From an uncultured Treponema sp. (GTDB lineage: Bacteria; Spirochaetota; Spirochaetia; Treponematales; Treponemataceae), in contig NZ_CAMHSK010000003.1 in NCBI RefSeq assembly GCF_946187725.1, positions 1 to 64,000 on the forward strand: a stretch of 64,000 bases of DNA. Reading direction: 5' to 3'. The notes beneath the pieces are model-generated. The model was not told the origin of the DNA. It was given only the letters and a program-made list of their open reading frames with translations, and searched no databases. Below are positions 40,292 through 59,353 of the stretch, piece by piece; the stretch's first letter is position 1; each line of letters begins with the position of its first letter. The position numbers and the translations under genes were made by a program.

Positions 40292-41095
40292 TTAGTCGCT
40301 CAGTAGTTTGATTTCTTCTTTGCTGAGTTCACGGTAACCACCGAGAGGAATTGTGGGATCAAGTTCTAGATTTCCCATCTTCACGCGTTTCAAATAAACA
40401 ACTTCGTTTCCCAGCTGAGCAAACATCCGCTTTACCTGATGAAATTTCCCTTCATAAATCTTGAGAAGACAATCGATATGCCGTGTGTTTTCCCCGCTCC
40501 CCTGCGAGCTTTCACAACTGCTCACTGCTAACTGCTCACTGCTAACTTCAAACTTAATCTCTGCCGGTTTTGCATCAAATCCGTTTTCGTTTCCTTCGCG
40601 GTCAATCCAGAAGCCTTTTGAGAATTTTTCTGTGTAGTTCTGTTTTTCTTCTTCGGTGAGAGAATCCCGCAAACCCACGGCGTAAGTTTTGGGTGCGTGA
40701 GTTTTTGGCGAGAGAAGCCTGTGCGTGAGCTTCCCATCTGTAGTGAGAATCAGCAGACCCTCGGTATCGATGTCGAGCCTGCCCATACAGTGAAGGTCGC
40801 CGCCTAAGAATTTGTGTTTTAGAGATTCGTCGAGCAAATCGAAGACTGTCTGATGCTCTCCATCCTTGTTCGCGCAAACGACATCCTGGCATTTGTTCAT
40901 CATAATGTAGAGGTCGTGCTGAAGTCGGATTTCTTCCTTGTCCACGCAAACAACATCATTCTCAATGTCGAGCTGAAATCCTGAGTCATAAACAAATTTG
41001 CCGTTGACGGTGACTCGTTCATCACGGAGCAGCTTTTTGACATCTTTTCGAGAGCCGAATCCATGATGAGACAAAATTTTATCGATTCTTTCCAT
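40292..41095 (-). CDS. rsuA: 16S rRNA pseudouridine synthase, RsuA/RluB family, with a repeat insertion
   Basis: 267 residues. An N-terminal S4 RNA-binding domain (ERIDKILSHHGFGSRKDVKK) precedes the catalytic domain with GRLDIDTEGLLILTTDG, whose Asp is the nucleophile, and LSPKTHAPKTYAVGL. Late EGKFHQVKRMFAQLGNEV and LKRVKMGNLEL complete the family pattern. RsuA versus RluB cannot be settled with certainty; RsuA is favoured by the GLRDSL and short N-terminus. The stretch VSSEQLAVSSCESSQGSGEN at about residues 182-201 is encoded by a heptad repeat array and lies between strands before HIDCLLKIYEG, likely a surface loop. AAGGA precedes the ATG. Confidence 0.85.
   Translation of the reverse strand: MERIDKILSHHGFGSRKDVKKLLRDERVTVNGKFVYDSGFQLDIENDVVCVDKEEIRLQHDLYIMMNKCQDVVCANKDGEHQTVFDLLDESLKHKFLGGDLHCMGRLDIDTEGLLILTTDGKLTHRLLSPKTHAPKTYAVGLRDSLTEEEKQNYTEKFSKGFWIDREGNENGFDAKPAEIKFEVSSEQLAVSSCESSQGSGENTRHIDCLLKIYEGKFHQVKRMFAQLGNEVVYLKRVKMGNLELDPTIPLGGYRELSKEEIKLLSD
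40519..40546 (-). repeat. 4-unit heptad array inside the rsuA-type gene
   Basis: On the coding strand GTTAGCA, GTGAGCA, GTTAGCA, GTGAGCA, followed by more degenerate copies. It encodes SSEQLAVSS, as in the methyltransferase gene. Confidence 0.85.
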
Positions 41096-41195
41096 TAGCG
41101 GTAATCCTTTAATTCAAACATTTGAAGCATAACAAGATTCCATTATATAATATATGCCTGCCAAGAGAAAGAATCCAGAATCCTATTTTTACCTG

Positions 41196-42533
41196 TTAAT
41201 TCTGAAATCCTATTTTCCTGTTATTGCCAAAACTCTCGGATTCAAATAATTTCCTTAATTCTCTTGTGTTATTTTCATCCAGAGAAAAACTTGCGATGAC
41301 GCATTCGTTTTTTTGACATATTGATTTCGCTGCGATTTGTGATAGCACGGAAGGAACTTCTCTTGGTCGACCATGACTTAGCTCGAAAATCAATTCTTTA
41401 GTTTTTTCAGGTATATGCTCTGGAACAAGCTTCGTATTGATTGAATTATCAGTAATCCAATCCTTGTATTGATTTTCAATGACAACGGATTTGATTTCTT
41501 CTTTCGTGTAATTTCTGATGTTCAGCTTTATTGGAAATCGACTTAGAATATGAGCCGGAATCTTTGAAATATCATTTGCGATTGCAATATAATTTATATG
41601 CGATGCGTCAACTTCAACCTTAAAGAAGTTGTCTGCAAAATGTTTTGCATTGTTTTTCTCAAGAAGTACCGAAAATGCTCCTGATAAATCTCTGTCGCCG
41701 CCATAGCCGTAGTCAGCTTTGTCTATTTCATCCAGAATTACAAGCGGGTTTGCGATAGGATGACCGTCTTTCTTAAAAAGTGAGCGTAAAATATCACCGC
41801 AGTTACTTTTGTCGTAGCCTTTGTCACCTCCCGTCAAGGTGAAGTTTACGCTTCCGCTTCCCAAAGTGGTGCGATGGTAATATCCATAAATTTCGCATAA
41901 TTTGTTTACAAAAGATGATTTACCGCAGGATGGTTCACCGATTATAAGGATGTTGCTCATTAAGATTTTTTTATCCGTTTTTAAGCTCAAAACTTCTTTG
42001 GAAGGGATGAAAATTTCTTCATATTCCTTAAAATTCGGATATTTCTCAAATAAGTCCTTCATTTTCTGAATATGTTCTTCCGTGTATTCTTTAAAATATG
42101 GAACGCCGGACAGAGATTCTTTGATAGAGCTGATGTTTTTGTCATTTTCCTTAGTTGTATCAAGCGATGAATAGATTCTGTTGAATTCATCAATAGAGAA
42201 CAAGGAATCATGTTCAGCAGAATCCTGGTTTTCTGTACGCTCTTCCTCTTGCATTACTTCATTTGCTTCTCGAATGGCTTCTTGGAGGTAATCATTAGGC
42301 TCATCAGATTCATCAAAATCTTGGTCTTCTGTATAGTCCTCTTCTGTTGGAGCTTCATCAGACTCCTCGATGGTGTATGTTTCTTCTGAATTAGAAATGT
42401 TTGTGCATGTAAAGGCGAACTGTACCAAAAGAGTGGCCAGCTGTTCGTATTTTGTCTCGTCTGATAAGTCGTTGTTATCCAAGAGTGCTACGGCTTTTTT
42501 TGCGATAGAGAGCATATTTTTATTTTGGTCCAT
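41196..42533 (-). CDS. Lon-like AAA+ ATPase without a protease domain
   Basis: 445 residues. The N-terminal 40 residues are helical and followed by a very acidic linker (about residues 50-110: TIEESDEAPTEEDYTEDQDF). An AAA+ module follows, with Walker A IIGEPSCGKSSFV (about 198-210), Walker B LVILDEIDKADYG (about 264-276), sensor 1 IAIAND (about 317), an Arg finger in LSRFPIKL (332) and sensor 2 GRPREVPSV. The order NPLVILDEIDK...GAFSVLLE...FKVEVDASHINYIAIANDISKIP closely follows the ATPase module of Lon, but no Ser-Lys protease domain follows; the protein ends at 445. AAGGAG precedes the ATG. It is divergent from the recombinase-like gene, with paired palindromes between. Low GC relative to the flanking core genes suggests acquisition. 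Confidence 0.78.
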   Translation of the reverse strand: MDQNKNMLSIAKKAVALLDNNDLSDETKYEQLATLLVQFAFTCTNISNSEETYTIEESDEAPTEEDYTEDQDFDESDEPNDYLQEAIREANEVMQEEERTENQDSAEHDSLFSIDEFNRIYSSLDTTKENDKNISSIKESLSGVPYFKEYTEEHIQKMKDLFEKYPNFKEYEEIFIPSKEVLSLKTDKKILMSNILIIGEPSCGKSSFVNKLCEIYGYYHRTTLGSGSVNFTLTGGDKGYDKSNCGDILRSLFKKDGHPIANPLVILDEIDKADYGYGGDRDLSGAFSVLLEKNNAKHFADNFFKVEVDASHINYIAIANDISKIPAHILSRFPIKLNIRNYTKEEIKSVVIENQYKDWITDNSINTKLVPEHIPEKTKELIFELSHGRPREVPSVLSQIAAKSICQKNECVIASFSLDENNTRELRKLFESESFGNNRKIGFQN

Positions 42534-42564
42534 TTTTGTGTCTCCTTTCTTTTTAAAGTGTAAA

Positions 42565-42624
42565 ATAACGCGTTATAATTTGTATTTTATACGAAAATAA
42601 GATTTTGTCAATATTAACGCGTTA
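42565..42624. promoter_or_regulatory. Twin ACGCGT palindromes in the divergent promoter region
   Basis: ATAACGCGTTAT (42565-42576) and TAACGCGTTA (42615-42624), centres 49 bases apart, about five helical turns less a few bases. Both touch -10-like sequences (GTTATAATT and GTTATATTG). They lie between two divergent genes, so one regulator could bind both and control both directions. Confidence 0.6.
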
Positions 42625-42662
42625 TATTGAATCTTTTTTGTATTTATTCTATTGTTATTCAT

Positions 42663-43754
42663 ATGGATGAAGAACGACTATTTAAAGAAATCATTTCAAC
42701 TTTCCCTGTATTGCTGACTTATGAGCCAGAAAAAATAATTGAAATTACGAATAAATTTCAGAATTTCCTTTTGGATTATAAGGCGACTGACAATTTTCCA
42801 AGACAATCTGATTTGGTTAATGAATATTTGGAGAGTGTGAGTCCGGAGTACAAAAAAGAAGCCGAAAAAGCAATATCGAAGTTCGATGAATTTTGTCTTC
42901 AACAAAACATTCCTTTTTTTAAAGTGAACGGGAATGATATTGTTGCCTTTGTGAAAGAAGCGTACAGTAACGGAATGTCTCAGGGGATTGTTCGTGTATT
43001 GGTTTCTCGTGTCCGTAAATTCTATTCATTCATATATGAAAAGAAACTTCTGATTTCAAATCCGTTTGATGATGTAAAACTGTCTGAAATTGATTATAAA
43101 TGTGGCGAGCAGTATTTAATTCCTTCAGAAGAGGAAGTCCAGGAAATAATAAATTCCTTGCCAATAGAAAAAGCTGTGATTCTTGCAGTTATTAGTGTGA
43201 AAGCGTATTCTGATGCTGATTTTTTGCAGGCATCTTTTTCTTATGCGGAATTTGAAAATCTAAATCAAAAAATTCTTGTCGATGGAGTTTTACAAGGTAC
43301 AGAAATTTCAGTTGCTTATTGTTATCGACCTGATGAAAATTGGAATGCAGTGGAGCCTGAAGGGTGGATTATTTCAGAATCTGATGGTGCAGGTTTTAGA
43401 GGATATTATGAATATATAAATTCTCCTCAATGGTATAATGATTTACTGGCGAGATTTTGGGAAAAAATCAGTCGTGACCATGTGGAAAATGAATATTATG
43501 GAATTGGAGAGGCGTATTTCTCAAATAAAAATATTTCTTTTCAATCATGTAAAAATATAATTCTGAAACAAATAAAGAAACTGTATTCGGAAGGCAAAAT
43601 AAAACATCCATACGGACTAAAAAATTTCCGATACTTTGCTGTGTTAATGGAATATTCTAAAAGTCATAACCTGGAAAGTGTAAAAAAGATGCTAAATCAC
43701 TCTACACTGAATACTACAAAACGATTCTTGCAAAATATCGGAATCAATGTGTGA
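42663..43754 (+). CDS. Tyrosine-recombinase-like protein lacking catalytic residues
   Basis: 363 residues. The middle has a SAM-like core-binding domain of phage integrases (AISKFDEFCLQQN ... VLVSRVRKFYSFIYEKKLLISNPFDDVKL, quoted in parts: SRVRKFYSFIYEKKL and NPFDDVKL). The C-terminal part keeps the outline of the catalytic fold but not the residues. The position of Arg I reads SVKAYSDADFLQ, the usual H-x-L-R-H-x is HPYGLKNFRYFAV, and the nucleophile Tyr after LNHSTLNTTKRF is Phe. It is therefore probably a DNA-binding protein without strand-transfer activity. The track's TTG start at 42627 is less likely than ATG 42663, which has TATTGT 7 bases upstream and no RBS. AT-rich, as is the divergent AAA+ gene. 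Confidence 0.72.
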   Translation: MDEERLFKEIISTFPVLLTYEPEKIIEITNKFQNFLLDYKATDNFPRQSDLVNEYLESVSPEYKKEAEKAISKFDEFCLQQNIPFFKVNGNDIVAFVKEAYSNGMSQGIVRVLVSRVRKFYSFIYEKKLLISNPFDDVKLSEIDYKCGEQYLIPSEEEVQEIINSLPIEKAVILAVISVKAYSDADFLQASFSYAEFENLNQKILVDGVLQGTEISVAYCYRPDENWNAVEPEGWIISESDGAGFRGYYEYINSPQWYNDLLARFWEKISRDHVENEYYGIGEAYFSNKNISFQSCKNIILKQIKKLYSEGKIKHPYGLKNFRYFAVLMEYSKSHNLESVKKMLNHSTLNTTKRFLQNIGINV

Positions 43755-43758
43755 GCTA

Positions 43759-43800
43759 ATTCCACGGATACAAAAGCTGTTTTTTGTTAATCCGTGGAAT
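43759..43800. terminator. Bidirectional hairpin between the recombinase-like gene and citrate synthase
   Basis: ATTCCACGGAT and ATCCGTGGAAT are perfect 11-bp complements. Inner ACAAAA/TTTTGT pairing extends the stem past a 2-base bulge. Located between two convergent stop codons. There is no strong T run outside the stem, so termination is plausible rather than certain. Confidence 0.6.
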
Positions 43801-43810
43801 CAGGTGTTTC

Positions 43811-45163
43811 TTATCGTTTTTCGATTGGAACATATTCCCTTTCTGCGGAAATGTTCTTGTATGCCGGACGGTAAATCTTTCCGCCTGCAACAATTTCCTC
43901 GATTCGGTGTGCGCTCCAGCCTGCGATTCGTGAGATTGCGAAAATCGGTGTGAAAAGCTCGCGCGGGATATTGAGCATCGAATAAACGAATCCAGAGTAC
44001 AAGTCAACATTCGCACAGATTTTCTTGCCGTCGCCGTGCTTTTCGTAAAGAATATCCGGGCTGAATTTTTCTACCATCTTGTAAAGATTGTATTCTTCGT
44101 CGAGGCCCTTTTCGTGTGCGAGTTTTGCAGCTCTGTCACGCAGGATTGTTGCTCGCGGATCGTTGATTGTGTAAACTGCGTGACCCATACCGTAAATCAA
44201 GCCTGTGCGGTTGAAAGCCTCTTTGTTGGCAATTTTTTCGAGGTAGCGTTTGACTTCGATTTCGCTTGACCAGTCTTTTACATTCTCTTTGATGTCGTCC
44301 ATCATTGCGGCAACCTGAATGTTCGCACCACCGTGACGGCGGCCTTTGAGTGAGCCGACTGCCGCACCAATTGCAGAATAAGTGTCCGTATCAGCAGAAG
44401 AAACGACATGAACTGTAAGAGAAGAGTTGTTACCGCCACCGTGCTCAGCGTGCAAAATCAAAGCGAGGTCGAGCAATTTTGCCTCTTCGTCAGTGAAAGC
44501 CTTGTTGTTTCGGATAAGGCGCAAGAAATTCTCGGCTGTAGAAAGCTCTGGCAGCGGATTGTGAATGTACATTGATTTTCCGTCGTAGTAGCGACGTTTT
44601 GCCTGATAAGCGTATGCCGTGAGAGTGGAGAATCGTGAAGTAAGCTCGATACACTGGCGCAAAACATTTGAAAGCGAGCGGTCTTCCGGGTTTGAGTCGT
44701 AAGAATAAGAAGCCAGAACACCGCGCGCAAGTTTGTTCATGATGTCGGCAGAAGGAGCCTTCATAATCATGTCTTCGGTGAAGTTGTCCGGGAGCTGGCG
44801 GAGAGAACCGAGGTATTCTTTGAAATGATCAAGCTCAGCCTGAGTCGGAAGCTCACCAAATAATAGAAGATAAACGCACTGCTCGTAGCCAAACTGATTG
44901 TGAGCCTCTGCGTCGTTAATCAAATCCTCAACATTGTAGCCACGGTAAATAAGGCGGCCAGGAATTGCGATTTTTTTGTCATCCTGAACTTCGTAACCGA
45001 CTACATCACCAATGCTCGTAAGTCCGACAAGAACGCCGGTGCCGTTTGCGTTTCGGAGACCGCGTTTGACATCGTATTTGTCATAAAGGCTTTTGTCGAT
45101 TGGGTCATTTCGTTCCGCAAGAACGGACAATCTGCCGATAAACAAACTTTCTGATTCTGTCAT
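43811..45163 (-). CDS. gltA: Citrate synthase
   Basis: 450 residues. Condenses acetyl-CoA with oxaloacetate to citrate; cytoplasmic. The catalytic residues are all in place: LHAEHGGGNNSSL (His), YGMGHAVYTINDPRA (His), and ANVDLYSGFVYSML (Asp). The N-terminal 'GRLIYRGYNVEDLINDAE' and SADIMNKLARGVLASYSYD belong to the same family. AAGGAG precedes the ATG. An ATTGCAT...ATGCAAT hairpin lies in the leader. A subset of homologues are 2-methylcitrate synthases, and the sequence does not decide this, but citrate synthase is most likely. Confidence 0.93.
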   Translation of the reverse strand: MTESESLFIGRLSVLAERNDPIDKSLYDKYDVKRGLRNANGTGVLVGLTSIGDVVGYEVQDDKKIAIPGRLIYRGYNVEDLINDAEAHNQFGYEQCVYLLLFGELPTQAELDHFKEYLGSLRQLPDNFTEDMIMKAPSADIMNKLARGVLASYSYDSNPEDRSLSNVLRQCIELTSRFSTLTAYAYQAKRRYYDGKSMYIHNPLPELSTAENFLRLIRNNKAFTDEEAKLLDLALILHAEHGGGNNSSLTVHVVSSADTDTYSAIGAAVGSLKGRRHGGANIQVAAMMDDIKENVKDWSSEIEVKRYLEKIANKEAFNRTGLIYGMGHAVYTINDPRATILRDRAAKLAHEKGLDEEYNLYKMVEKFSPDILYEKHGDGKKICANVDLYSGFVYSMLNIPRELFTPIFAISRIAGWSAHRIEEIVAGGKIYRPAYKNISAEREYVPIEKR

Positions 45164-53880: not shown

Positions 53881-54345
53881 ATGTTATATTTTTCAATTCC
53901 GTATGAAATACAAACAGTCGTCAAAAAAGAGTCTTCTCTTACAGGAAAATCAGTCAGAAAAATTCTGATTGAAAAACTATGGGGAGAGACAATTGAAAAA
54001 AACTTTTCCCCAGCTTTGCGTGCGAATCTTTCAAAACTCGAGGAAATCAAAGCTCTAAGAAAAAACTGGAATGGTAACAATTCGAAACCCATTTCAAAAA
54101 AAATTATAAAGAAAGCAAAGACTTTAATCATAGATTTGGAAAAACAACCTCAGATTTTTCCGACAGCGAACGACTCGATTCAGATTGAATATGACGGAGA
54201 AAATAATTCTTATCTTGAGCTTCAGATTACGAAAAAGAATAAACTTTCATATTATAAGGTAGACAAAAACGGCGTTGAGTCTACGGGATTTATTCGTTTC
54301 TCTCCTGTAGAATTGAACAATCTTGTAGGGGTGTTTTATGAATAA
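53881..54345 (+). CDS. Unknown protein, first gene of a two-gene accessory module
   Basis: 154 residues, AT-rich gene. N-terminus MLYFSIPYEIQTVVKKESSL; the central motif LRKNWNGNNSKPISKKIIKK (a W-N-G-x-x-S-x-P-I pattern followed by a helix) and then PTANDSIQIEYDGENNSYLE match the layout of a widespread small uncharacterised family ('W-[DN]-G-x(2)-A/S-x-P...I..A..hl...P.v.p..dg.i.lEw....leI'). No catalytic residues identified. It overlaps the next gene by 8 bases and has its own promoter. Could be part of a toxin-antitoxin-like or defence pair, which is only a guess from the pairing. Confidence 0.65.
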   Translation: MLYFSIPYEIQTVVKKESSLTGKSVRKILIEKLWGETIEKNFSPALRANLSKLEEIKALRKNWNGNNSKPISKKIIKKAKTLIIDLEKQPQIFPTANDSIQIEYDGENNSYLELQITKKNKLSYYKVDKNGVESTGFIRFSPVELNNLVGVFYE

Positions 54346-54670
54346 TACTTTCAACGATGCAGAGCTTTTATACAGAGCCGTTTATCCGCCGGAAATGAGT
54401 AAAATGTTTTGGAAAGATGGAAATCATGTTTCATCCGCAGCATTTCTTGATAAAAACGGACTTTCGGTTGAAAGGGGAAATTTCAGAACAGATAATGATG
54501 TTATAAATGAAATGAAAAAATTTTTTATCGGTAAAATAGTTTCTGTTTCTGTAAAACTCTGTAGAAATATTAATGCGTCTGTTTTATACAAGCCCACAAA
54601 AAGAAGCCTTTTTCATTCAGTGATAAAATTATTGTTCTTTCCCCCTCTCAGAGAAGATATTTGGCAATGA
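54338..54670 (+). CDS. Unknown protein, second gene of the two-gene module
   Basis: 110 residues. The N-terminal part (ELLYRAVYPPEM, then GNHVSSAAFLDKNGLSVER) fits the partner family that usually follows the W-N-G family: L-Y-R-x-V-x-P ... S-S-A-A-F ... G-L-S-V. The C-terminus (ASVLYKPTKRSLFHSVIKLL) keeps a basic segment with a single His. The start overlaps the upstream stop by 8 bases with GTAGGGG as RBS. Function unknown. Confidence 0.62.
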   Translation: MNNTFNDAELLYRAVYPPEMSKMFWKDGNHVSSAAFLDKNGLSVERGNFRTDNDVINEMKKFFIGKIVSVSVKLCRNINASVLYKPTKRSLFHSVIKLLFFPPLREDIWQ

Positions 54671-54783
54671 ATTGTAAAGTCGTTTATTGATTATTTTAGA
54701 CTAAATGGGCTTCTGTTGAAAACTTACAGATGATACTTTATAATTATTTTAATATAAGCGAAGGTTTATATTTTAGGGTAAAA

Positions 54784-56175
54784 ATGTTCTGTAAGTATTG
54801 TGGAAAAGAATTAGCTAATAATGTGAAATTTTGCTCAAAATGTGGCGGGAAACTTGTTTCTGAATTAAATGCCGTTGAAACAAAAATTAATGAAGCTACA
54901 GACAAATCTGACGAAGTCAAAGAAATAAAGTTTTGTAAATACTGCGGAAAACAATTGTCTGCAACAGCACAATTTTGCTCAAAATGTGGAAAACAACCTT
55001 CACCAATTTTAAATACGCAAATTGAAGATAAAAGTGAGAGTCCGAAAACACTCTCTGCAAAAACAGAGATAAATCAGATTCAAAAGAATTTGAATACAAC
55101 TGAGCATCCACAACAAAAACAGGAAGAGTCAGAAAATACTTCTATAAAGCTAAATGACAACGAAAAGCCTGAAACAGAAAAAGATTTCGATGTAACTCAA
55201 AAAATTGAAAAATTTTCCATTAGAAATCTGTTCGTTCAAGTTTTTAAATCTCATACACCAAAAGAAAGAGATGAGATTTTGAAAGCTGGTATTGTTTCAA
55301 ATGAAAATCTAGAAATCAAAAATGAAAGTTTCCAGCCCTGGCTTTATTCTCGTGTGTTCTTGATTTTGCTTGCAGTGTTTGGCGTTTTTGAAATCGGGCT
55401 TCTCAGTTTCCATAACTCAAATTTAATGCCGGCTGTAATGCTGATAGGTTCTTTGATGATTCCTTTTTCGCTTCTTACGATGTATTTTGAATTGAATGTT
55501 TATAAAGACATCAGCTTCTATAAAGTAATAGGTATCTTTCTTTTAGGCGGAGCCACTTCACTTTTGTTTACATTATTCTTGTATGCGATATTTCCAAGTG
55601 GGGAGAATTATGATTTTGCACATGCTTCTTTAATAAGTGTTGTTGAAGAAATAGGAAAAGCCTGCATTGTGATGATGTTGATAACTCGTAACAAAAATTA
55701 CACGGTTCTTCATGGACTTTTGATTGGCGGAGCAATTGGTTGTGGATTCGCAGTTTTTGAGAGTGCAGGTTATGCTTTCAATGTTTTCTTGGACGCTCAC
55801 GATTGGAATACTCGTGCAAATATGGTCAATGAATATCTTCCATGGTACTACCAATATCAATATGCGGATTCAATTGCTGAAATGAATTTCAACATTTTCT
55901 TGCGTTCTATTCTTTCGTTCGGCGGACACACAGCTTGGGCAGCGATAACAGGAGCGTCATTCGCCAAAGAAAAAACACTGAATTTTAATTTTATAAAGAT
56001 GTTCGCCGTCTGTTTTATTCTTCATGCGATTTGGGACACAAACACTCCAGCGGCTTATTTCAAGTTAATTATGCTTTGTATTGTAGCATGGGTTGTAATA
56101 GTATGGCAGATTTCGAAATTTGTGGATGAGAACTTTGTGGGGGAAGAAGGAAGTAAAAATGGGGAGGGTGAATAA
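54784..56175 (+). CDS. Zinc-ribbon PrsW-family intramembrane metalloprotease
   Basis: 463 residues. Two zinc ribbons at the N-terminus (CKYCGKELANNVKFCSKCG and CKYCGKQLSATAQFCSKCG) precede a long polar Glu/Lys/Thr linker and about eight membrane segments. PrsW motifs are intact: VVEEIGKACIVMM (EExxK), CGFAVFESAGY (FxxxE), FGGHTAWAAITGAS (HxxW) and LHAIWDTN (HxxxD). PrsW proteases cut membrane-bound regulators such as anti-sigma factors; the substrate here is unknown. ATG 54784 is chosen over 54730 because the zinc ribbon starts there and AGGG stands before it. Confidence 0.85.
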   Translation: MFCKYCGKELANNVKFCSKCGGKLVSELNAVETKINEATDKSDEVKEIKFCKYCGKQLSATAQFCSKCGKQPSPILNTQIEDKSESPKTLSAKTEINQIQKNLNTTEHPQQKQEESENTSIKLNDNEKPETEKDFDVTQKIEKFSIRNLFVQVFKSHTPKERDEILKAGIVSNENLEIKNESFQPWLYSRVFLILLAVFGVFEIGLLSFHNSNLMPAVMLIGSLMIPFSLLTMYFELNVYKDISFYKVIGIFLLGGATSLLFTLFLYAIFPSGENYDFAHASLISVVEEIGKACIVMMLITRNKNYTVLHGLLIGGAIGCGFAVFESAGYAFNVFLDAHDWNTRANMVNEYLPWYYQYQYADSIAEMNFNIFLRSILSFGGHTAWAAITGASFAKEKTLNFNFIKMFAVCFILHAIWDTNTPAAYFKLIMLCIVAWVVIVWQISKFVDENFVGEEGSKNGEGE

Positions 56176-56177
56176 AA

Positions 56178-56918
56178 ATGAGTAATTGTTTTAATGATGA
56201 TGAATACTTTGAAAAAGTTTTTGACTCGGCTAAAAACAGAATTGATTCATCCGATTATAAAAAAATAGAAAAAGCGTTTGAATTAGCTCATGATGTCCGT
56301 AAATTTGAAATTGAATTGTTTTGGAAACGCGGAACTTATTTTTGGGCTTTTATTTTGGCTTCGTTTACAGCGTATTTCATGCTCTTTGAAAAAATACTTG
56401 GAGATAAATGTCTTACACTTTGTACACTAATACGATTTCCATCTTTATCAAAAATTCTCCTTTTACTTCTTTCTTGCATGTGTTTTATATTCTGTATTTC
56501 ATGGGTTCTCATAAATAAAGGTTCTAAGTTTTGGCAGAAAAACTGGGAAGCCCATATTGATGTAATGGAAGATTTGTTTTCAGGAAAATTGTATAAAACG
56601 ATTCTGAATACTGAAACGGATGAATTTGATAAGTCTGCATTAAGAAAGTCTGCTTATGACTATTCTGTTACGAAGATTACAACTGTGACTTCAATAATTT
56701 TGATGGTTGTTTCTGCTGTTTTAAGTATATTTCATTTTATACTTTTATTTTTAAATAAAAGATTTTGTCAATTTGTCCAAAATAACGAACAAATATTTGC
56801 TAAAATCTTAGGAATTTTAATCAGTGCCTTAATTTTATTCTGTATTTATAAGTTGAAAGCTTGTAAAGGAAATCTTGAAGAAAAACAAAAACAAGGAAAA
56901 TGGCGACAAAGAAAATAA
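56178..56918 (+). CDS. RipA-like octameric membrane protein family (tentative)
   Basis: 246 residues with four membrane segments in two pairs (about residues 55-72, 95-114, 172-190 and 213-231). A charged N-terminal part contains ELAHDVRKFEIELFWKRGTY and then FWAFILASFTAYFML. The K-F-E-I-x-L-F-W-K-R-x-x-Y-F-W pattern before the first span is what I associate with the RipA family of membrane proteins first noted in Francisella, but I cannot check this. Two bases after the PrsW gene, probably co-transcribed. Confidence 0.55.
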   Translation: MSNCFNDDEYFEKVFDSAKNRIDSSDYKKIEKAFELAHDVRKFEIELFWKRGTYFWAFILASFTAYFMLFEKILGDKCLTLCTLIRFPSLSKILLLLLSCMCFIFCISWVLINKGSKFWQKNWEAHIDVMEDLFSGKLYKTILNTETDEFDKSALRKSAYDYSVTKITTVTSIILMVVSAVLSIFHFILLFLNKRFCQFVQNNEQIFAKILGILISALILFCIYKLKACKGNLEEKQKQGKWRQRK

Positions 56919-56936
56919 ATAGAAAGGGAGATAAGT

Positions 56937-58259
56937 ATGTTTTGTGTAAATTGTGGAAACAAATTAGATGACGATGCAGTTTTCTGTACGAATTGCGGGA
57001 AAAAACTAACAGCTGATGTCTCAAAAGAAGAAATCAGGTTCTGTATAAATTGCGGAAGCAAACTGGACGAAGATTCTGCATTTTGTTCGAACTGTGGGAA
57101 AAAGATTGAATTCAATGGTGTTTTTTCTACAGAAACAATACCAGACTCCTCAAAAATAGAGGCAACTCAAGAAAAGACAGAAAATGATATTCCAATAATT
57201 GCAGCATCTGAGAATTCATGCGAAGACAACCCTAAAACGATAGAAGAAATGAAAACTGGGGAAAATATACAATTAGGTGCTCTAGAAACTAAAACTTCTC
57301 CATTAGTAAATTTTGCAAACGACAAAACAATCGAAGAAAAAGCTGTAGCAACAAAAATCGACAAAATGGAAGACACTTCCGAAGTTACCTATCAAAAATC
57401 AGAAGTTCCTAACGATAAAAATGAACAATTAATTTCTGATGCACAGGTTTCCAAAAAAGGAAGTACAAAACAGGATATTCCAAATAAGGCTGAATCTATA
57501 AAGGAAAACATTCCAAAGACTTCTACTGAGGAAAAAGGAAGTTCTACATTTGCAATAGTTTTGATTATTGGTTTTATATTATCTTTAATTTTGGCATTTT
57601 TTATAGAAACAAGTAAAAATACTAAAAACAATAATTCAGCAGCTGAATATAATACAGGACTTAAAGTGGGCGATGTTATTCAAGAAAACGGAACTCCAAT
57701 TGCTGTGATTTTTAAGAAAGCATCAGGTGGACAACCAGCATTGGGTGTAGCATTAAGACAAAGTGATTCATTACAGTGGGCTAGCTGTCATTATGATTTT
57801 GAACCAGGTTATAGCAAAACAACTGTCTCTCAAGGATATGACAAAAGCATAAGAGGATTGCAAAATTTAACTGATGGACATGATGGTTATAAAATATTAT
57901 GTAATTCTGTGAATGATTGGCAAAAAAAAGGAAGCTATCCAGCTTTTGAGTATGCAGAGAATTATTCTGCGGGGAGTTTTACAGATTGGTATTTGCCGAC
58001 AGCTAATGAATTGTATTTTCTATATATAAATTTGGAAAAAGTGAACCAATCTCTTATGCAATGTGGCGGAAAAAAAATAAAAATCGTCCCCGGAAATATT
58101 TTTTATTGGACTTGCAACCAAGTAGAAAATACATCTTGGGCAGCTGTTTGTACGGATTTTTGTTATAGCATTGATTCCTCAAGGCAGAATGTCGGCGGAT
58201 GTAATCAGAAAGGTGGTGGATTTACAGTTCTTCCAATTCACAGAGTGTATGAAAAATAA
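56937..58259 (+). CDS. Zinc-ribbon membrane protein with DUF1566-like C-terminal domain
   Basis: 440 residues. Two zinc ribbons (CVNCGNKLDDDAVFCTNCG, CINCGSKLDEDSAFCSNCG) are followed by a Lys/Glu/Thr-rich linker to about residue 200. A single membrane span comes next (FAIVLIIGFILSLILAFFIE). The extracytoplasmic domain has DWYLPTANELYFLYINL and the ending VLPIHRVYEK, resembling DUF1566/Lcl C-terminal-like folds. It is the third gene of a run with the PrsW and RipA-like genes, and the ribbons are of the same type as in the PrsW protein, so they may work at the same membrane site. GGGAG precedes the ATG. Confidence 0.75.
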   Translation: MFCVNCGNKLDDDAVFCTNCGKKLTADVSKEEIRFCINCGSKLDEDSAFCSNCGKKIEFNGVFSTETIPDSSKIEATQEKTENDIPIIAASENSCEDNPKTIEEMKTGENIQLGALETKTSPLVNFANDKTIEEKAVATKIDKMEDTSEVTYQKSEVPNDKNEQLISDAQVSKKGSTKQDIPNKAESIKENIPKTSTEEKGSSTFAIVLIIGFILSLILAFFIETSKNTKNNNSAAEYNTGLKVGDVIQENGTPIAVIFKKASGGQPALGVALRQSDSLQWASCHYDFEPGYSKTTVSQGYDKSIRGLQNLTDGHDGYKILCNSVNDWQKKGSYPAFEYAENYSAGSFTDWYLPTANELYFLYINLEKVNQSLMQCGGKKIKIVPGNIFYWTCNQVENTSWAAVCTDFCYSIDSSRQNVGGCNQKGGGFTVLPIHRVYEK

Positions 58260-58315
58260 AGATGATAATCAAAATGGATTGCAAAAAATATGGTAAAAAA
58301 TAAATGGAGACCAAT

Positions 58316-58813
58316 ATGAAAAATAAGAAAATAATTTTTGCGATATTAGTTACATTACTATCATTTCTTCCACTTGCAGCAGAGGAATCACCTATGAAAG
58401 GATGGTATTATGAGCCTTCAATCCAACTAAACGGAAAGTACTTTACATTTTATTCAAAATCCTATAACGAGCAGGATGGCTATGCACTTGTGCTTGGCGA
58501 GAAGTTGCATTATTGGCTGTATGATACGCTTTCGTATCATAACGGCAATGCTTCTGAAATCTACAACAAGATTATTCCGAAGTGGGTTGAGAATATGGGG
58601 TATGTCATCGACTATGACAATATTCATGTATCAAATCCTAATACTGCACTTGCTTCATCTGTCCGTGCATTGATGAAACAGCGAGGAGCGAATATCAGTG
58701 TTACGCTTTGCACAAAAGAGAATTACAAGACAAATGTTGATTATGTCGTAATCAATGAATATTTGCCTGGTAAGGATTTATATAAAACAACCATATACTA
58801 TCTTTACCGATAG
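58316..58813 (+). CDS. Secreted protein, unknown
   Basis: 165 residues. The signal sequence MKNKKIIFAILVTLLSFLPLAA is followed by a small aromatic-rich domain (GWYYEPSIQLNGKYFTFYSK, ALVLGEKLHYWLYD). No family recognised. ATG 58316 (after GGAG in ATGGAG) is preferred to the track's 58304. The next gene, also secreted, follows after 21 bases. Confidence 0.65.
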   Translation: MKNKKIIFAILVTLLSFLPLAAEESPMKGWYYEPSIQLNGKYFTFYSKSYNEQDGYALVLGEKLHYWLYDTLSYHNGNASEIYNKIIPKWVENMGYVIDYDNIHVSNPNTALASSVRALMKQRGANISVTLCTKENYKTNVDYVVINEYLPGKDLYKTTIYYLYR

Positions 58814-58834
58814 TCCAATTTTGAAGGTAATTTT

Positions 58835-59353
58835 ATGAGAAAAATATTCACATGCTTTATGCTTTTGTTTGTCATGGGATTTTCTTTTGCAGAAGAAATA
58901 ACAAGCAAAAGTTTACACCGAAGTGGTGTATACGGTCAGAGTTTTGAGCTTGTAGAATATAGCGATGGAAACAAATGCCGACTTTTGCTGTATATGGCAG
59001 ACAACAAAAATACAAATAAATATGGCGTAACTTTCTATGATTCAACGCTGCCTACTGCATATTTTATTTGGTCTAAATGGTTCACAAGTCCAAGCGAATA
59101 CTCTAAAGCAATTGTGGCGAGCAAAACTTTTTTTGATGTTAGCATGGATTTGATATATCTTGCTGATATGAAAGATATTTGTGACATTGCACCTTGTTGT
59201 ACATCAATTCATTACGGAGTATCGGAGTCACGCAGCAAAGAAAAATATATTCATATTGAATATGATTGTTCTGATTTGGAGCTTTTGTTTGAAATAGCAG
59301 GTGCATACAACGCAAAAGGTCGTGATTATGTCATGCAGAAATATTTGAAATAA
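58835..59353 (+). CDS. Secreted protein, unknown
   Basis: 172 residues. Signal sequence MRKIFTCFMLLFVMGFSFAE. The mature part has mixed polar/aromatic strands (YGQSFELVEYSDGNKCRLLLY) and two Cys in CDIAPCC. No family recognised. Same AT-rich character and spacing as its neighbour, likely one operon. RBS GAAGG. Confidence 0.65.
   Translation: MRKIFTCFMLLFVMGFSFAEEITSKSLHRSGVYGQSFELVEYSDGNKCRLLLYMADNKNTNKYGVTFYDSTLPTAYFIWSKWFTSPSEYSKAIVASKTFFDVSMDLIYLADMKDICDIAPCCTSIHYGVSESRSKEKYIHIEYDCSDLELLFEIAGAYNAKGRDYVMQKYLK

Follow-up and report, generated by a model that had tools for sequence, protein, structure and literature searches.

What is the function of a gene pair in which a Lon-type AAA+ ATPase without a protease domain is encoded opposite a recombinase-like protein that has lost its catalytic residues? 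Such a pair is found on contig NZ_CAMHSK010000003.1 of an uncultured Treponema sp., within a stretch of 64,000 nucleotides that was analysed as a whole and is referred to here as the window. A preliminary description of the locus had proposed a dedicated two-part machine, with a DNA-binding pseudo-recombinase working together with an AAA+ motor. The comparative analysis presented here favours a different reading, to which we assign a probability of roughly 70%: a dead recombinase was repurposed as a local DNA-binding regulator of its divergent partner gene, within a mobile two-gene cassette.

The gene pair, its insertion site and the AAA+ protein

Both open reading frames of the divergent pair were recovered, separated by a 129-bp gap, and the pair is AT-rich as first described (~35% GC versus ~43% around it). 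The genes and their surroundings are as follows.

40292-41095, rsuA, flank of the cassette
41096-43810, no strand, two-gene insertion (the cassette) separating gltA from rsuA (junction comparison with relatives)
41196-42533, minus strand, AAA+ ATPase gene, 445 aa (Lon-type ATPase module, no protease domain)
41205-41213, minus strand, C-terminal IGF tripeptide, aa 441-443 of ...NRKIGFQN
41913-41939, minus strand, Walker A, aa 199-207, GEPSCGKSS
42663-43754, plus strand, pseudo-tyrosine-recombinase gene, 363 aa from the ATG (ORF, fold and alignment)
43759-43800, no strand, inverted repeat ATTCCACGGAT...ATCCGTGGAAT, probable shared terminator of the convergent pseudo-recombinase and gltA genes (from the sequence)
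43811-45163, gltA, flank of the cassette

The gap between gltA and rsuA in the window is 2.7 kb and is filled by the AAA+/pseudo-recombinase pair; in G113 and G493 (gltA 94-95% identical) the gltA stop codon overlaps or abuts the rsuA start and there is no cassette, and the gap is 15-118 nt in most other relatives having both genes. In G501, a sister genome, the same junction holds a pair of 108-aa and 144-aa ORFs (L169, G501:C113, 826-1583) that is VapBC-like by sequence appearance. Other pseudo-recombinase copies with flanking sequence lie at unrelated chromosomal places. The pair is thus a small mobile cassette of ~2.7 kb, and its insertion site is one that can also be occupied by a toxin-antitoxin-like pair. 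It resembles toxin-antitoxin systems (e.g. VapBC) in being a small two-gene mobile cassette, and is unlike them in that its genes are divergent and encode neither a toxin fold nor an antitoxin-like small protein. An AT-rich island is also found at 53881-59353 of the window (32-35% GC), encoding small secreted proteins and two membrane proteins with zinc ribbons, one of which looks to contain a PrsW-like domain.

The AAA+ protein gave matches to Pfam AAA (9.1e-8), to NCBIfam Lon (6.6e-17 over aa 121-365, corresponding to profile positions 282-521 of 795) and to Lon chains in the PDB. As only 80 residues of the 445-aa protein remain after the Lon match, with no other domain match, a protease domain is absent, in agreement with the preliminary description. 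The full set of Walker, sensor and Arg-finger motifs was likewise confirmed, being invariant in four close relatives: Walker A (G199..CGKS), Walker B (D268 E269), sensor 1 (N320), Arg finger (R332) and sensor 2 (R391). These motifs are shared with the Lon ATPase module, whereas the N-terminal substrate domain and the Ser-Lys protease domain of Lon are missing and a C-terminal IGF tail is present; the N-terminal ~120 aa are acidic and variable, and structure prediction was poor (pLDDT 55). An identity as an ordinary Lon was rejected.

IGF is the tripeptide by which ClpX docks on ClpP, and in ClpX it is located within an internal loop. The IGF of the window protein is at the C-terminus and not in a ClpX-like internal loop, and an identity as an ordinary ClpX was also rejected. 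A wider set of protease-less AAA+ proteins ends in (I/V/M)GF plus 0-7 residues, including the window protein and three relatives, large IetA-like AAA+ proteins, stand-alone forms of 660-740 aa, and phage and plasmid relatives (tails RKVGF, ARIGF, SMGFRA and GVGFVSEGWN); of the distant phage and plasmid relatives that were inspected, three others lack the tail. Loci with a conserved (K/R)x(I/V/M)GF tail span several AAA+ subfamilies (window, L041-L051, L109, L110, L174 and L175), and an (I/V/M)GF tail occurred by chance in 3 of 493 other ORFs. The window genome has two ClpP genes, and the sequence of the tail hints at a role in docking, possibly to ClpP. Papers on a C-terminal IGF tail of AAA+ proteins were not found in the literature searched, and this tail of protease-less AAA+ proteins, shared with phage and plasmid relatives, represents a separate lead. 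On the viral contigs L109 and L110, AAA+ proteins ending in VGF/IGF are encoded a few genes from ThiF/E1-like proteins, as read from the sequence.

The genus also contains a two-gene system (L041-L048, e.g. L046:5947-9587) in which a ~720-aa IetA-like AAA+ gene, with a C-terminal IGF, lies directly upstream of a gene for a ~480-aa Lon-like AAA+ protein with a zinc-ribbon-like N-terminus, neither product having a protease domain. The Lon-like member is ~30% identical to the window AAA+ protein and the larger member ends in (K/R)xIGF; unlike the window pair, the two AAA+ genes are co-directional and there is no pseudo-recombinase.

Fold and catalytic residues of the pseudo-recombinase

The 363-aa protein has an NCBIfam XerC/XerD match (1.2e-8) limited to its N-terminal domain (aa 59-140). 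An AlphaFold model built on a 7-sequence alignment (mean pLDDT 80.8, pTM 0.56) matched XerH/Cre in Foldseek (E 5e-5, probability 1.0), indicating a tyrosine-recombinase fold; further matches were the Tn1549 integrase, MrpR (8a0a), YopR (8bj6) and phi3T SroF bound to DNA, with whole-chain TM-scores for the fold matches of only ~0.3. Catalytic sites were placed by a gap-free C-terminal alignment in which L007, an ordinary Xer protein, and intact Treponema recombinases served as references; this alignment pairs the HTFRH/HDFRH of the intact proteins with K320-N-F-R323-Y of the window protein. The domains and catalytic positions, with their state in the seven members of the family, are as follows.

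aa ~48-126, core-binding-like domain; aa ~156-358, catalytic-fold domain
43209-43211, plus strand, Arg I position, Ser183 (S, Q or N in 7/7 members)
43620-43631, plus strand, HxxR motif, K320-N-F-R323 (His to Lys in 7/7, Arg II kept in 6/7)
43698-43700, plus strand, His III position, H346 (retained in 7/7)
43725-43727, plus strand, nucleophile Tyr position, F355 (Phe in 4/7, Tyr in 3/7)

The second His of HxxRH is replaced by Y324, and the window protein has S183, K320, R323 and F355 in place of the R-H-R-Y catalytic set. The replacements of Arg I, His and Tyr claimed in the preliminary description therefore hold, whereas its reading of 'LKN' at the HxxR motif was off register and Arg II is retained. 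Realignment restored Arg II and not an intact R-H-R-Y set, and Arg I and His are lost in all seven members, consistent with the degenerate recombinase originally described. With XerC/XerD/XerH and intact Treponema recombinases (L003-L005, L008) the pseudo-recombinases share the fold, an N-terminal SAM-like domain and an LLNHxxxxxT C-terminal signature; they differ in these losses, including that of Tyr in 4/7, and in a conserved insertion of ~50 residues (YEYINxPxWY..LLxxFW) that is absent from the intact proteins. The ORF is intact and 34 residues are invariant over the seven divergent members, indicating that the gene is under selection. Taken at the level of its residues, the protein is predicted to be a catalytically dead member of the tyrosine-recombinase fold. 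An identity as an integron or mobile-element integrase was dropped due to the loss of catalytic residues. A separate recombinase lineage (L006:871-1725) keeps Arg I, has DDFRN in place of HxxRH and Phe in place of Tyr, and is perhaps another, independent dead recombinase.

Partner genes and palindromic sites

When 200 genomes of the genus were searched, seven full-length pseudo-recombinases turned up, including that of the window, all from rumen Treponema, and six were recovered among 85,462 species representatives, all Treponema or Spirochaetaceae, adding no species to the genus search. The cultured strain Treponema ruminis RU1 carries the pair in a complete genome. Outside the genus, a phylum sample of 393 genomes contained ordinary Xer-level matches and no pseudo-recombinase; IMG/VR viral contigs, searched with single proteins and alignments, contained no pseudo-recombinase and at most distant AAA+ proteins, and phage records contained no pseudo-recombinase and nine weak AAA+ matches.

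In four of the seven loci the divergent partner belongs to one and the same AAA+ subfamily, with 42-56% identity: the window, T. bryantii-like G458 (L096), T. ruminis G462 (L099) and G558 (L100). Divergent co-occurrence, a check proposed with the preliminary description, was thus seen in four species, and all four closest members of the AAA+ subfamily in the 200 genomes are divergent to a pseudo-recombinase; the next-best AAA+ proteins of the genus score at most 232 bits, versus at least 691 for these four, and belong to other systems. The partner in the remaining three loci (G138, G545 and G575) is a small lipoprotein of 125-145 aa that is unrelated to the AAA+ protein, the three lipoproteins being mutually homologous (34-41% identity). 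On the pseudo-recombinase tree, the lipoprotein-linked G138 member groups with the AAA-linked G458 member (support 98/99) and the AAA-linked window member groups with the two other lipoprotein-linked members (support 86/92). As the partner classes interleave, it is the partner that is swapped, with the pseudo-recombinase as the fixed component.

This distribution bears on the proposal that the two proteins form one machine, in which the pseudo-recombinase would mark DNA and recruit an AAA+ ring to remodel or unload DNA-bound proteins, possibly in defence. The divergent placement of all four closest AAA+ relatives is in its favour, as are its patchy occurrence and its insertion as a cassette, both characteristic of defence or selfish modules, and the neighbourhoods of L040, where a nearby gene matches PADLOC Orf5/HEC-06, and L097, which adjoins a type I restriction gene. 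However, PADLOC gave no defence model for either protein above weak P-loop similarity, three of the seven pseudo-recombinases have a lipoprotein and no AAA+ partner (two of these three carrying the same palindromes), partners are exchanged on the tree, and the corresponding motor role cannot be filled by a secreted lipoprotein. Homologues do therefore occur without the AAA+ protein, the dedicated machine was not upheld, and it is considered unlikely, a dead recombinase repurposed for local regulation being the more probable reading.

The divergent gap contains the following predicted elements.

42566-42575, no strand, palindrome 1, TAACGCGTTA, putative operator immediately past the point where AAA+ transcription is predicted to start
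42584-42611, minus strand, predicted AAA+ promoter, TTGACA (42611-42606), 16-nt spacer, TAAAAT (42589-42584)
42615-42624, no strand, palindrome 2, TAACGCGTTA, located between both promoters and adjacent to the AAA+ -35 box, putative operator
42627-42655, plus strand, possible weak, near-leaderless pseudo-recombinase promoter, TTGAAT-17-TATTGT, ending 7 nt upstream of the ATG (identified by eye; it falls under the threshold of the scan)

The palindrome-bearing promoter region reported earlier was substantiated, with TAACGCGTTA occurring twice in the gap at a distance of 49 bp (expectation 0.08 in 64 kb), and these two copies being the only exact ones in the 3.27-Mb window genome. In L096 (AAA type) the two copies of TAACGCGTTA are spaced by 59 bp. 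Of the lipoprotein-type loci, L097 combines an exact copy with one carrying 1 mismatch, at a spacing of 65 bp, and L040 combines a 1-mismatch with a 2-mismatch copy, at a spacing of 64 bp (sites with up to 2 mismatches are expected ~0.13-0.37 times per region); twin sites are thus present in 4/7 loci, two of each partner type. L099 has a single degenerate site (2 mismatches), and the gaps of L098 and L100 contain no recognisable pair, a search of these two for alternative twin repeats giving weak, AT-rich candidates at most. Exact sites were inside divergent gaps in 2/2 cases in the window genome, 2/2 in G458 and 1/1 in G545, and in 5/6 cases in the seven genomes together. A TTGTCAA stretch, the -35 box toward the partner, is present in 6/7 gaps, near the right palindrome where one exists, and stronger counterparts of the pseudo-recombinase promoter are present in L096, L040 and L100. 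Since the putative sites go with the pseudo-recombinase and not with the partner, the pseudo-recombinase is the likely binder of the twin palindromes. The left palindrome at the predicted AAA+ start site and the TTGTCAA near the right one form a layout that a repressor would use.

The palindromes could alternatively bind another host regulator, the pseudo-recombinase being an unrelated or decaying gene, and the two loci without sites are consistent with this. The reading is improbable given that exact TAACGCGTTA is confined to this locus in three genomes, that the sites are common to loci whose sole shared gene is the pseudo-recombinase, and that decay is at odds with the intact ORF and its invariant residues.

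A putative local regulator with exchangeable partners

As a local regulator, the product of the right gene would have lost recombination and would bind both TAACGCGTTA copies, one at the partner transcription start and one beside the partner -35 box, where it would probably repress its own gene as well as the partner, the latter perhaps through bridging of the two sites. The regulated effector would be encoded by the left gene, in the window a protease-less Lon-type AAA+ unfoldase or remodeller, and in other species the same regulator-plus-operator unit would face the small lipoprotein gene. We infer the pseudo-recombinase as binder, repression as its effect and the role of the AAA+ protein from what was observed, namely residue loss, recurrence, partner exchange, the conservation and exclusivity of the putative operators, and the insertion site. 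Partner exchange, together with putative operators that track the pseudo-recombinase, points to a regulator and not to a motor-plus-recombinase machine; the site-poor loci L098, L100 and L099 count against a regulator, as do the limits of the fold model (7-sequence alignment, pTM 0.56, whole-chain TM-scores of ~0.3) and the length of the palindrome, which at 10-12 bp does not reach that of a complete recombinase dimer site, although the MrpR motif has 15 bp. Among the roles suggested in the preliminary description, regulation and a mobile cassette fit, whereas DNA remodelling by a complex does not, given the lipoprotein loci with the same palindromes and the interleaved partners.

MrpR (YopR; PDB 8a0a/8bj6), the master repressor of the Bacillus subtilis prophage SPbeta, is a proven repressor with a 15-bp DNA motif in which Arg is replaced by V/S and His by N and recombination is absent, and its authors suggested that recruitment of recombinases as transcription factors may be more widespread (PMC10516654). 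Like MrpR/YopR and phi3T SroF (PDB 9rd5), the window protein has a tyrosine-recombinase fold with core-binding and catalytic domains and has lost Arg I and the HxxR His; the repeated short promoter elements bound by MrpR would have their counterpart in the putative twin palindromes. Unlike the prophage master switch, the window protein is part of a chromosomal two-gene spirochaete cassette, its putative sites are confined to its own divergent promoter, with an AAA+ or lipoprotein partner, and the pseudo-recombinases keep His III while Tyr is often Phe. Neither MrpR nor YopR was found by phmmer of all PDB chains (E <= 5), and the best reading is that the pseudo-recombinase works like MrpR, by analogy and not as demonstrated kin. 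The MrpR paper (PMC10516654) was the single match for dead-recombinase regulators in the literature searched; within the scope of the searches, the earlier statement that no system of this kind is described is thus true of the composition, yet not of a dead tyrosine recombinase acting as a repressor.

It is conceivable, at low probability, that the pair is a portable defence or conflict cassette, in which the dead recombinase would sense DNA state (e.g. incoming or recombining DNA) via the operators and free an AAA+ unfoldase, which would use the IGF at its C-terminus to dock on host ClpP and supply it with new substrates. Least probable is an active or conditionally active recombinase inverting the promoter between the palindromes as a phase switch, for although the palindromes are paired inverted 19-nt arms flanking a promoter and Tyr and Arg II are retained in 3/7 and 6/7 members, Arg I and the HxxR His, both needed for phosphate activation in tyrosine recombinases, are lost in every member, no inverted isomer was seen, and the TTGTCAA promoter has the same orientation toward the partner in 6/7 loci.

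Tyrosine recombinases acting as transcription factors are known mainly from phage MrpR. The local regulator proposed here would be an apparently independent case, residing in chromosomal cassettes of rumen Treponema, with comparative evidence for putative sites and for the exchange of partners.
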